Positions 36,885 to 44,475 of a DNA stretch of 64,000 nucleotides are shown piece after piece; within the stretch, counting starts at the first letter, position 1; each line of letters begins with the position of its first letter. The notes under the pieces were generated by a model that made no database searches, was not told where the DNA came from, and worked only from the letters and a program-made list of their open reading frames with translations. Origin of the DNA: Rufibacter hautae (GTDB lineage: Bacteria > Bacteroidota > Bacteroidia > Cytophagales > Hymenobacteraceae); the NCBI RefSeq assembly GCF_008271695.1, contig NZ_VKKY01000002.1, positions 1,240,001 to 1,304,000 on the forward strand, in the 5' to 3' direction. The position numbers and the translations under genes were made by a program.

Positions 36885-38297
36885 CTATATGCTGGCGGCT
36901 TTCTCCAGGGCCTTGCGCAAGGCGGCCAATTTGTGGTGCACCTCATTAAGTTCGCTGCGGGTATCCGACTTGGCCACCACCCCGGCACCCGCCTGGAAAT
37001 GCAGTTTGTTCTCCACGCTCAGGAAAGACCGGATCATGATAGCATGGTTGAAATCACCCCCAAAACCCAGGTACCCGATGCATCCGCCGTAATAACCCCG
37101 GCCGGTGGGCTCAAGTTCATCAATCAAGGTTAAAGCGCGGTGTTTGGGCGCCCCGGACAAGGTCCCGGCCGGGAATGTATCGGCTACCATCTGCACCGAG
37201 CCGTGCACCTGCGGCAGGTTGGCGGTCACTTTGGACACCAGGTGAATCACGTGCGAGTAATACTGAACCTCTTTGAAAACCTCCACCTGCACGTTGTCGC
37301 CGTGGCGACTGAGGTCGTTGCGGGCCAGATCCACCAGCATCACGTGCTCTGAGTTCTCCTTGGGGTCATCGTAGAGTTTCTGGGCCAGCTCGGCATCGGC
37401 GGCATCGTTGCCGGTGCGCTTGAACGTTCCCGCGATGGGGTAAATGGTGGCCACGTCGTTTTTAATGGTGAGCTGCGCCTCGGGCGAAGATCCGAAGATC
37501 TTGAAGTTGCCGTAATCAAAGTAGAACAGGTACGGAGAGGGGTTAATGGAGCGCAGGGCGCGGTACACGTTGAACTCATCTCCCTGGAAAGACTGGGAGA
37601 ACCTTCTGGAAAGCACAATCTGGAACACGTTGCCCAGGTGGCAGTGGCGCTTGCCCTCCTCAATCACGTGCAGAAACTCCTCATCGGTTTGGTTCGTGCT
37701 TTCCTCGCCGGAGAGCGAAAAGTGGAACATAGGGAAGTTCTTGTTCCGGATGTGGGTCTCCAACTCGTCCAGTCCGTCGTTTTGAGGCTCGTTTCCGAAA
37801 AAGTGCTCAAAAATGTACAGCTCGTTTTTGAAATGGTCAATGGCGATGACAAACCGAAAGGCCTGGTACAGAATCTCGGGCAACTCGGGGTGGGCGGTCT
37901 CTTTCTGACGCAGGTTCAGGGTTTCATAGTACTGCACCGCCTCAAATGACATGTACCCGAACAACCCGTTTTGGATAAACCCGAAAGGACTGGCCTCCGT
38001 CTTGAACGACTCACAATAGGTCTGCAGCAATCCTACGGCATCGCGCTTGTTGGTAAGTACCTCCTCCTCTACTGTGCCGTCTGGGTACGAGCGGCGGAGC
38101 ACGCTGTCTTTCAGTTTGAACTCCGCGATGGGCTCGCAGCAGATGTAGGTGAAGCTGTTCTCGTGCCCGTGGTAGTCAGAGCTTTCCAGCAAAAGGCAGT
38201 TCCGGTACTTGTCGCGCAGTTGCAGGTAAATGCCCACCGGCGTCACAGTGTCGGCGAGGAGTTGGCGGTATTGCGTTTGTAGGGTGTACGTCTTCAT
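36885..38297 (-). CDS. trpE: anthranilate synthase component I
   Basis: A 470-residue chorismate-utilising enzyme, first committed step to tryptophan. The feedback motif LLES is present at residues 36-39 (NCLLLESSDYHG), so Trp inhibition is likely. Catalytic blocks are IAGTFKRTGNDAADAE, LVDLARNDLSRHG and FPAGTLSGAPKHRA. I chose ATG 38297 (MKTYTLQTQYRQLL), because the longer frame from 38339 would start within the attenuator hairpin. Expression is probably set by two attenuators directly upstream as well as by feedback inhibition. Confidence 0.96.
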   Translation of the reverse strand: MKTYTLQTQYRQLLADTVTPVGIYLQLRDKYRNCLLLESSDYHGHENSFTYICCEPIAEFKLKDSVLRRSYPDGTVEEEVLTNKRDAVGLLQTYCESFKTEASPFGFIQNGLFGYMSFEAVQYYETLNLRQKETAHPELPEILYQAFRFVIAIDHFKNELYIFEHFFGNEPQNDGLDELETHIRNKNFPMFHFSLSGEESTNQTDEEFLHVIEEGKRHCHLGNVFQIVLSRRFSQSFQGDEFNVYRALRSINPSPYLFYFDYGNFKIFGSSPEAQLTIKNDVATIYPIAGTFKRTGNDAADAELAQKLYDDPKENSEHVMLVDLARNDLSRHGDNVQVEVFKEVQYYSHVIHLVSKVTANLPQVHGSVQMVADTFPAGTLSGAPKHRALTLIDELEPTGRGYYGGCIGYLGFGGDFNHAIMIRSFLSVENKLHFQAGAGVVAKSDTRSELNEVHHKLAALRKALEKAASI

Positions 38298-38306
38298 AAA
38301 AAGTAT

Positions 38307-38388
38307 AAAAAAAGGCTTGCCGTTTGGGATGAACAGCAAGCCTTTTATAGTATGGGCTAGTTTAGTTTAGGCAATAACCTGCTGTTCA
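38307..38388 (-). promoter_or_regulatory. trp attenuator 2: terminator and antiterminator strand
   Basis: On the minus strand an 11-bp stem (38346-38336 with 38320-38310) is followed by seven T's and ends about ten bases before the trpE ATG. The segment TGAACAGCA at 38388-38380, inside the end of the leader ORF, is perfectly complementary to TGCTGTTCA at 38338-38330, part of the terminator 5' arm and loop. A ribosome stalled at the three Trp codons (38414-38406) would leave this segment free to form the antiterminator; one reaching the stop codon at 38369-38367 would cover it. Confidence 0.85.
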
Positions 38389-38444
38389 CAAATTTCTCGA
38401 TTGTGCCACCACCAAATCATTTCGCTAAACATCACTTTTTTCAT
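38367..38444 (-). CDS. trpL: trp leader peptide 2 (25 residues, three consecutive Trp)
   Basis: A short ORF with ATG at 38444-38442, two Lys codons after Met, the central part IWWWHNRE, and TAA at 38369-38367. Three TGG codons in a row are very unlikely by chance in such a short frame placed just before a terminator and trpE. It acts as a sensor of charged tRNA-Trp, not as a functional protein. The motif WW-H-x-R is shared with leader 1 upstream, suggesting duplication. Confidence 0.85.
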   Translation of the reverse strand: MKKVMFSEMIWWWHNREICEQQVIA

Positions 38445-38483
38445 TTCTGCTCTTTCTTATTTTCTGAACGGTTATAAAACACC

Positions 38484-38545
38484 AAAGGCCCGGGTGAATC
38501 CGAGCCTTTCATTAGTTGCATTTCTGCACAGCAAGCGGTTCACCC
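38484..38545 (-). promoter_or_regulatory. trp attenuator 1: upstream hairpin and antiterminator strand
   Basis: On the minus strand a ten-bp stem (38509-38500 with 38493-38484, one G-T pair) is followed by GGTGTTTTAT, a weak T-run. The segment GGGTGAACCG at 38545-38536, immediately after leader 1, pairs with CGGATTCACCC at 38502-38492 with one bulged base. The layout repeats that of attenuator 2, with a poorer terminator. Confidence 0.65.
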
Positions 38546-38546
38546 A

Positions 38547-38600
38547 TCAGTCTTGACGTGTGTGCCACCAGGCTTTGTGAGAGAATTGCGTCTTGTTCAT
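38547..38600 (-). CDS. trp leader peptide 1 (17 residues, two consecutive Trp)
   Basis: A short ORF MNKTQFSHKAWWHTRQD with ATG at 38600-38598 and TGA at 38549-38547. It follows a perfect promoter element by only four bases, so its mRNA is probably leaderless or nearly so. The TGGTGGCACA stretch is identical in leader 2. It is likely translated to sense Trp-tRNA at the first of two attenuators. Confidence 0.75.
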   Translation of the reverse strand: MNKTQFSHKAWWHTRQD

Positions 38601-38604
38601 GATG

Positions 38605-38634
38605 CAAATGTAGGGGCCAGAAAATCATTTGCAA
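38605..38634 (-). promoter_or_regulatory. trp operon promoter, Bacteroidota type
   Basis: On the minus strand TTG (38634-38632), 19 bases, then TACATTTG (38612-38605): both the -33 and -7 elements and their spacing match the Bacteroidota consensus. The leader 1 ATG begins four bases later. Confidence 0.8.
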
Positions 38635-38705: not shown

Positions 38706-39647
38706 GTGCTAACCAGATTTTCCCACTACCCTTTCTTCTTCCTTGTGCTTCTTGCCTGGCTGAGTTTTTCTCCTTCCGTTGCGGGCGCGCAGTCTACCTA
38801 CACCTTTGAAACCGGGGAACCGCAGGACACCGTCAACCAGTTCAGCCGCCGCTTGCCCTGGCTCGCCGCCGGCGGCGCCACCCTGTACGTGGGCGGGCTG
38901 GCATTGCTCAACCAAGCCTGGTACAGTGAAAAAGAGCGGACCTCCTTCCACTGGTTCAACGATGCCCACGAATGGAAACAGCTAGACAAAGCCGGCCATC
39001 TTTGGGGCGCCTTCCATGAAAGCCGCGTGTTGGTGGATTTGCTGCGAAAAGCGGCCGTGCCCGAGAAAAAAGCCATCTGGTACGGCGGCGCCCTGGGCTT
39101 CGTGCTGCAGACCCCCATTGAGTACTTTGACGGCCGCTCACCGGAGTACGGCGCCTCCCTATCTGATATCGCGGCCAATGCCGCCGGCTCCCTGCTAGTC
39201 ATAAGCCAGCAACTGGCCTGGGGCGAGAACCGAATCACACCCAAATATTCTTTTCACCGCACCCGCTACGCCGCTCTGCGCCCCAATGTGCTGGGTAAAG
39301 GCCTTTCCGAGGAATTCCTGAAAGACTACAATGGGCATACGTATTGGTTAAGCGTAGACCTTACTAAATTCTTGCCCAAGGAAAGCCGTTTTCCCAAATG
39401 GCTCAACCCTGCCGTAGGCCTGGGCGCTGAGGAAATGGTCTATAATGATGCGGAAGCTAACCGCGCCATCGGGTTGGAAGCGTACCGGCAATATTACCTG
39501 AGTGTGGACCTTAACTGGAAAGCCATCCCCACCCACAGCAAGTTTTTAAGAAGCGCTTTCTATGTGCTTTCCATCTTCAAGTTCCCGACTCCGGCGCTGG
39601 AGTACAACAGAAGAAAAGGCTTTAAAGCGCATGCCCTCTACTTTTAA
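38706..39647 (+). CDS. DUF2279 family protein
   Basis: A 313-residue exported protein of the DUF2279 (YfiM-like) family. The signal peptide (FFFLVLLAWLSFSPSVAGAQS) ends near residue 29. The family core contains FNDAHEWKQLDKAGHLWGAF, then a hydrophobic segment YGGALGFVLQTPIEYFDGRSPEYGASLSDIAAN. The start is GTG 38706. The function is unknown; an outer-membrane or periplasmic position is likely. It is divergent from the trp operon with about 100 bases between. A dispersed palindrome overlaps its stop codon. Confidence 0.8.
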   Translation: MLTRFSHYPFFFLVLLAWLSFSPSVAGAQSTYTFETGEPQDTVNQFSRRLPWLAAGGATLYVGGLALLNQAWYSEKERTSFHWFNDAHEWKQLDKAGHLWGAFHESRVLVDLLRKAAVPEKKAIWYGGALGFVLQTPIEYFDGRSPEYGASLSDIAANAAGSLLVISQQLAWGENRITPKYSFHRTRYAALRPNVLGKGLSEEFLKDYNGHTYWLSVDLTKFLPKESRFPKWLNPAVGLGAEEMVYNDAEANRAIGLEAYRQYYLSVDLNWKAIPTHSKFLRSAFYVLSIFKFPTPALEYNRRKGFKAHALYF

Positions 39648-43882: not shown

Positions 43883-43891
43883 TAAAAAATC

Positions 43892-44272
43892 GGTGAGCCG
43901 GCTTATCGCTGCGCCTTCGGGTGGGGAGGAAAGTCCGGGCAACGCAGAGCATCCTGCTTCCTAACGGGAAGGCACCTGGCGGGGAACGGCCAGGTGACAG
44001 CCAGTGCCACAGAAAAGTACCGCCGGCTTGCCGGTAAGGGTGAAAAGGTGCGGTAAGAGCGCACCAGCGGCTAGGCGACTAGTCCGGCTGGGTAAACCTC
44101 AGGAGTTGAAAGACCAAATAGGCTGACAGCGCCATGCCTTAGGGCAAGGCTAAGGGCTGCTCGTCCGATGTCAGCGGGTAGGTTGATGGAGCCCCTCCGT
44201 GAGGGCGGGCCTAGATAAATGATAAGCCATTTGCCTCTGGGCAGAAGACAAAACCCGGCTTACAGGCTCACT
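43892..44272 (+). ncRNA. rnpB: RNase P RNA, bacterial class A
   Basis: The catalytic RNA that matures tRNA 5' ends. The 5' end GTGAGCC (43893-43899) pairs with GGCTCAC (44265-44271) to close helix P1. The universal GAGGAAAGTCCGGGC lies near 43926-43940, AGGGTGAAAAGGTGCGGTAAGAG is broken over 44037-44059, and the 3' conserved segment AGAAGACAAAACCCGGCTTA is near 44243-44262. Length is about 380 nt. A run of T's follows at 44274. It has its own promoter. Confidence 0.96.
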
Positions 44273-44475
44273 GATTTTTTTATTTTTTCCTTTCTCCTGC
44301 CTTCCTTCTTTTGTAGACTATCCTCAATAGGCGCCTTAGTACGCGCAAGGCAGGACAACAACAAGCCAGAAGTTTCGCGTATAAACAATAGTCCGGTAAC
44401 CTTGATTTTGCCAAAAAAGGCGGTGGTTGTGCCCAAGTCCTCCGGCTGCCGCGTAACTTTATATCACTTCTGGGT

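Follow-up and report, generated by a model that had tools for sequence, protein, structure and literature searches.

In enterobacteria, as exemplified by Escherichia coli, the trp attenuator combines two adjacent Trp codons with the alternative 1:2, 2:3 and 3:4 hairpins and an intrinsic terminator. The trpE leader region of Rufibacter hautae studied here shares adjacent Trp codons, alternative hairpins and, most clearly in its second unit, an intrinsic terminator with this system, but the E. coli attenuator comprises one unit, is not leaderless and is unrelated in sequence. Within Bacteroidota, the Bacteroid-trp leader RNA, represented by Rfam RF01692 (Weinberg 2010, PMC2864571), likewise places a WW(W) leader, a complementary strand and a terminator before trpE; however, that motif comprises one unit, whereas Rufibacter has two. 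The trpL of Sinorhizobium meliloti (PMC7298713) is comparable as a Trp attenuator with a leaderless transcript that begins on the leader AUG, as predicted here for leader 1, although it has one unit and also acts in trans. As for the doubling, the Salmonella mgtCBR leader (PMC3641672) harbors two ribosome-mediated attenuators, but these respond to different signals (ATP and proline) and their hairpins do not resemble intrinsic terminators. The mefA/msrD "double-lock" (PMC10314930) has two ribosome-mediated transcription attenuators in series that respond to one inducer class, the second with an intrinsic terminator, but it senses macrolides and the mefA gene lies between the attenuators. In ermB (PMC8274638) two leader peptides lie upstream of one gene and respond to one inducer, although in this case the attenuation is translational and the inducer an antibiotic. 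The statement in the original prediction that it knew of no described case thus needs narrowing: tandems as such are known from mgtCBR and mefA/msrD, while in the open-licence literature we found no biosynthetic operon described with tandem ribosome-mediated attenuators for a single amino acid.

Two units and a single promoter upstream of trpE

The analyzed window, a stretch of 64,000 nucleotides, bears the trp operon on its minus strand in the order trpE-G-D-C-F-B-A, with both attenuator units upstream of trpE. While trpG, trpD, trpC and trpF were assigned by Pfam and trpA by PF00290, trpB is the ORF in the expected place of the operon and was assigned by position only. On the other side of the leader region a divergent DUF2279 gene is found on the plus strand at 38706, and elsewhere in the window (43890-44278, plus strand) lies the RNase P RNA of bacterial class A (RF00010). 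The closest named relative is Rufibacter sp. SYSU D00344, with a TrpE identity of 97%. The elements of the region are as follows:

38632-38634, minus strand: -33 box TTG of a Bacteroidota-type (sigma-ABfr) promoter, in 15/15 Rufibacter at a distance of exactly 18 nt from the -7 box
38605-38612, minus strand: -7 box TACATTTG (consensus TAnnTTTG), 4 nt before the leader 1 ATG in 15/15 Rufibacter
38547-38600, minus strand: leader ORF 1, 17 codons, MNKTQFSHKAWWHTRQD and stop, the ORF and WW being kept in 15/15 Rufibacter
38554-38573, minus strand: unit 1 strand 1, spanning the Trp codons and serving as 5' arm of the protector hairpin, pairs with 38549-38531
38531-38549, minus strand: unit 1 strand 2, beginning at the stop codon, with the antiterminator core GGGTGAA at 38545-38539
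38484-38509, minus strand: unit 1 terminator hairpin (strands 3 and 4), AAAGGCTCGG-ATTCAC-CCGGGCCTTT
38476-38483, minus strand: interrupted U tract GGTGTTTT after hairpin 1, conserved as GG(T/C)GTTT
38367-38444, minus strand: leader ORF 2, MKKVMFSEMIWWWHNREICEQQVIA and stop, with WWW and a 1-nt deletion compared with most relatives, whose leader 2 ends in CWWHQSEDS and stop
38378-38389, minus strand: unit 2 strand 2 GTGAACAGCAGG, 5' arm of the antiterminator, 14-nt complement to the terminator 5' arm and loop
38310-38346, minus strand: unit 2 terminator hairpin, followed by a long T run
36885-38297, minus strand: trpE (anthranilate synthase component I; Pfam PF00425 and PF04715), first gene of trpEGDCFBA

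The upstream unit proposed in the original prediction is thus real: behind the promoter come the 17-codon WW leader and the complementary strand, and the hairpin occupies exactly 38509-38484. The downstream unit is equally real, its leader running from 38444 to 38367 and its hairpin from 38346 to 38310, which places two units in series before trpE. In the former, GGGTGAACC sits one base 3' of the leader 1 stop codon and the GGGTGAA core is complementary to TTCACCC at 38498-38492, its antiterminator partner inside hairpin 1. In the latter, the T run ends directly before the trpE ATG at 38297. Both hairpins are stronger than shuffled sequences: hairpin 1 folds at -15.9 kcal/mol against a shuffle mean of -7.2 (z -3.9) and hairpin 2 at -19.5 kcal/mol against -6.4 (z -5.9). 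A potential cross-talk pairing of GCTTGCTGT in unit 1 with ACAGCAGGC in unit 2 was discarded, since on inspection by eye it is broken in L016 and weak in L018; it is probably incidental.

The leader 1 ATG occupies 38600-38598 on the minus strand, so that the end of the -7 box falls at -5 relative to the A of the AUG in all 15 Rufibacter loci. In the start-site map of Flavobacterium psychrophilum TAnnTTTG spans -12 to -5 (PMC9723704); given this spacing, and with the -7 to +1 distance being borrowed from Flavobacterium, the predicted +1 is the A of the leader 1 AUG itself (38600). Hence, the original proposal of a leaderless first leader gains support from the constant 4-nt distance and the Flavobacterium map, and leader 1 is likely to be translated from a leaderless 5' end with a predicted start on the AUG. 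An exact -7 box precedes unit 1 in 18/18 tandems of the survey described below, but is found within 45 nt upstream of leader 2 in none of the 18. A second promoter between the units was likewise rejected, since a scan allowing one mismatch recovered no promoter-like site there in any of 15 Rufibacter loci. Both units are therefore served by a single promoter.

Conservation of the tandem across Rufibacter

Our set included 16 Rufibacter genomes, 15 of which have a full TrpE match. Absence of the upstream unit from close relatives would have counted against the original prediction, but both units are present at all 15 Rufibacter trpE loci, and the unit 1 segment yields exactly one BLAST match in each of these genomes and none in the sixteenth. 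That genome (G011) does have trpA; its lack of a full-length TrpE match and of unit 1 could reflect an assembly gap or a loss. In an alignment of the loci the conserved blocks comprise, in the first half, the promoter, ATGAA, GCYTGGTGGCAC, the stop with GGGTGAACCGCTTGCT, and hairpin 1 with its tail, and, in the second half, TTGGTGGCA of leader 2, TGAACAGC and hairpin 2; upstream and between these blocks the sequence has diverged. Consecutive Trp codons occur in both leaders upstream of trpE in 15/15 Rufibacter, and leader 1 always runs for 7 codons from its first Trp to the stop. This frame is maintained despite a 3-nt indel in L016 and L018 (two species), and in L014 the stop has changed from TGA to TAA.

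The pairings are retained as well. Pairs of the protector hairpin are kept in 218/225 cells across 15 species, as against 29-54% in slid versions, those of the unit 1 antiterminator (strands 2 and 3) in 103/105 and those of the terminator in 146/150; taken together, 97-98% of cells keep the protector, antiterminator and terminator pairs, versus 10-73% when slid. As most columns are invariant, with a double change within Rufibacter in one protector cell and in none of the other helices, these counts speak for retention more than for covariation. Anatomy and conservation together lend good support to tandem attenuation, which we consider highly probable.

The WW-H-x-R and the 10-nt word TGGTGGCACA, which the original prediction had noted as common to the two leaders, are indeed so in this strain and its 97%-identical sibling. 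In most others, however, leader 2 reads CWWHQSED and stop, and the word is replaced by TGGTGGCACC or similar. WW-H-x-R thus appears in both leaders of this strain and its sibling because leader 2 has a different end there, owing to a 1-nt deletion. In these two (the sibling being G006, locus L005) the deletion makes the ORF read through strand 2, with the stop about 14 codons after the last Trp pair rather than 8, a natural variant of the attenuator geometry.

The two units differ in their terminators: unit 2 has both a hairpin and a U tract, whereas unit 1 has a strong hairpin with an interrupted U tract. The unit 1 tail reads TTTGG(T/C)GTTT in all 15 Rufibacter, with tail scores of 2.7-3.2 versus 4.4-5.4 for unit 2. 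In about nine species the GG of this tail can lengthen the stem by pairing with the CC or TC before AAAGGC. Since none of the 15 species has an uninterrupted U tract here, termination at unit 1 may be weak or leaky. This suggests that the units are not equal; the main gate may be unit 2, preceded by unit 1 as a leaky filter.

The interrupted U tract could also be taken to mean that an older attenuator is decaying in unit 1 and survives there as a relic, with unit 2 doing all the work, especially as one unit suffices in Adhaeribacter and Hymenobacter. We hold this to be very improbable, because unit 1 is conserved above unit 2 genus-wide (mean identity 84% versus 76%) and its ORF, stop spacing, strands and hairpin are intact in 15/15. 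The same high conservation, which extends to non-stem sequence, would in turn fit a role in trans, in which unit 2 alone regulates trpE while unit 1 yields a short attenuated RNA or leader peptide comparable to rnTrpL/peTrpL of Sinorhizobium meliloti, where a trans-acting product of a leaderless trpL is known (PMC7298713); the atypical terminator tail of unit 1 is compatible with such a role. This too is improbable: unit 1 retains every part of a cis attenuator and sits directly in the trpE transcript, and the N-terminal half of the leader 1 peptide varies freely, with WWH and length alone being kept.

Predicted operation of the two units

Taken as a whole, the locus very probably carries two complete ribosome-mediated attenuators sensing charged tRNA-Trp, in series between one promoter and trpE. 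For each unit we folded the transcript as it stands just before strand 4 emerges, with a ribosome represented by masking either on the second of the Trp codons or on the stop. With the ribosome stalled, 8-15 nt of the terminator 5' arm and loop pair upstream, forming the antiterminator, in both units in 15/15; with the ribosome at the stop, strand 3 mostly has no more than 5 nt paired upstream. The masked folding and the retained pairs concur in that the antiterminator and terminator pairings are mutually exclusive. In full-equilibrium folding the terminator usually prevails even when the ribosome is stalled, implying that the switch has to work kinetically, as classical attenuators do.

We infer that transcription would start at the leader 1 AUG, or within 1-2 nt of it, and that leader 1 would be translated leaderless. 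A ribosome stalling at the WW codons would allow strand 2 to pair with strand 3 and polymerase to read on, while one reaching the stop would cover strand 2 and leave hairpin 3:4 to terminate; if the leader were not translated, the 1:2 protector would also let 3:4 form. Transcripts extending past unit 1 would then meet unit 2, where the leader would be started internally and the decision repeated at a stronger terminator. Read-through to trpE would be the product of both units, which would reduce the leak and widen or steepen the response; the originally proposed steeper or two-step behavior would follow from the series arrangement.

Folding without a ribosome separates the two units. In unit 1 the 1:2 protector (-24 to -32 kcal/mol) occupies strand 2, leaving strand 3 mostly free in 12/15, whereas in unit 2 the protector is weak and the antiterminator mostly still forms. 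A refinement of the tandem model is conceivable on this basis: upon failure of translation unit 1, with its protector, would shut off while unit 2, with little protector, would read through, such that the pair senses translation initiation in addition to Trp. We regard this as doubtful, since its basis is thermodynamic folding of single sequences and since unit 2 of Fulvivirga seems, by eye, to keep a short protector. That a tandem with such opposite defaults has been kept across Rufibacter, with the series arrangement evolving separately in Fulvivirga, is a tentative model.

Distribution and origin of the tandems

To survey trpE upstream regions we used a detector that requires an ATG ORF 10-45 codons long and containing WW or WY, followed by a hairpin that folds at -12 kcal/mol or stronger and has a T-rich tail. 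Of 191 distinct regions, 154 contained one unit, 18 contained two and 19 lacked any, so that 172/191 had at least one; the controls gave 1/191 on the reverse strand, 0/115 in the region 800-1400 nt upstream and 0/191 in dinucleotide shuffles. By these counts single Trp units are the rule in the order and tandems the exception. With controls at 1/191 or fewer and both units at 15/15 loci, the Rufibacter tandem is not a chance occurrence. A WW(W) leader with a terminator before trpE is nearly universal across the approximately 190 loci from Cytophagales and other Bacteroidota. RF01692, at its gathering cut-off of 49 bits, matches four Flavobacteriaceae single-unit loci (L109, L111, L124 and L125); it has no match in the window or in L004, neither Rufibacter unit being recovered even at E<=1, and among the loci tested most WW(W) units are beyond its reach. 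Weak Rfam matches to Thr_leader and mir-980 were dismissed as chance, none being above cut-off.

The 18 tandems comprise the 15 Rufibacter loci and three others, one of the latter being L077, which is named Fulvivirga marina. A single unit is present in each of the Adhaeribacter, Pontibacter-like and Hymenobacter relatives; some of these genus names were inferred from named loci, and the genus of the Pontibacter-like genomes is presumably Pontibacter. In the genus of L077, Fulvivirga, assigned by the match of its loci to L077, tandems lie upstream of trpE in 7 of 13 assessable genomes, a count that leaves out L240 and L241, namely at L228, L230, L232, L236, L237, L238 and L239; in two of these tandems leader 2 starts with GTG. 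Sister species within Fulvivirga carry a single unit. The simplest reading is that the Rufibacter and Fulvivirga tandems have two separate origins.

The original prediction further held that the unit was probably duplicated; a recent duplication within Rufibacter does not find support, because units 1 and 2 of one genome are 62% identical, no higher than the 60-66% seen against single units from other genera (for unit 1, 66% against the Adhaeribacter unit and 64% against the Pontibacter-like one), with the Fulvivirga unit 1/unit 2 figures in this comparison being unreliable as in two loci one unit only was picked up. The second unit may instead stem from an older duplication or a separate gain, the sequence being too short to tell these apart.

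In single units of the surveyed regions the spacing from the -7 box to the leader is most commonly 7-8 nt, suggesting that near-leaderless trp leaders may be general in this group. Leaderless or near-leaderless trp leaders are hence indicated in Bacteroidota, a phylum in which such mRNAs are rare (3.7% with a 5' UTR shorter than 10 nt in B. thetaiotaomicron, PMC7366714; 5.5% leaderless messages in F. psychrophilum, PMC9723704). Given that the tandem is fixed in one genus and present in a distant one, selection seems to favor doubling of the switch. The single-unit Adhaeribacter, Pontibacter-like and Fulvivirga genomes offer natural controls against which a lower leak, a steeper response or noise control could be distinguished as the benefit of the second unit.
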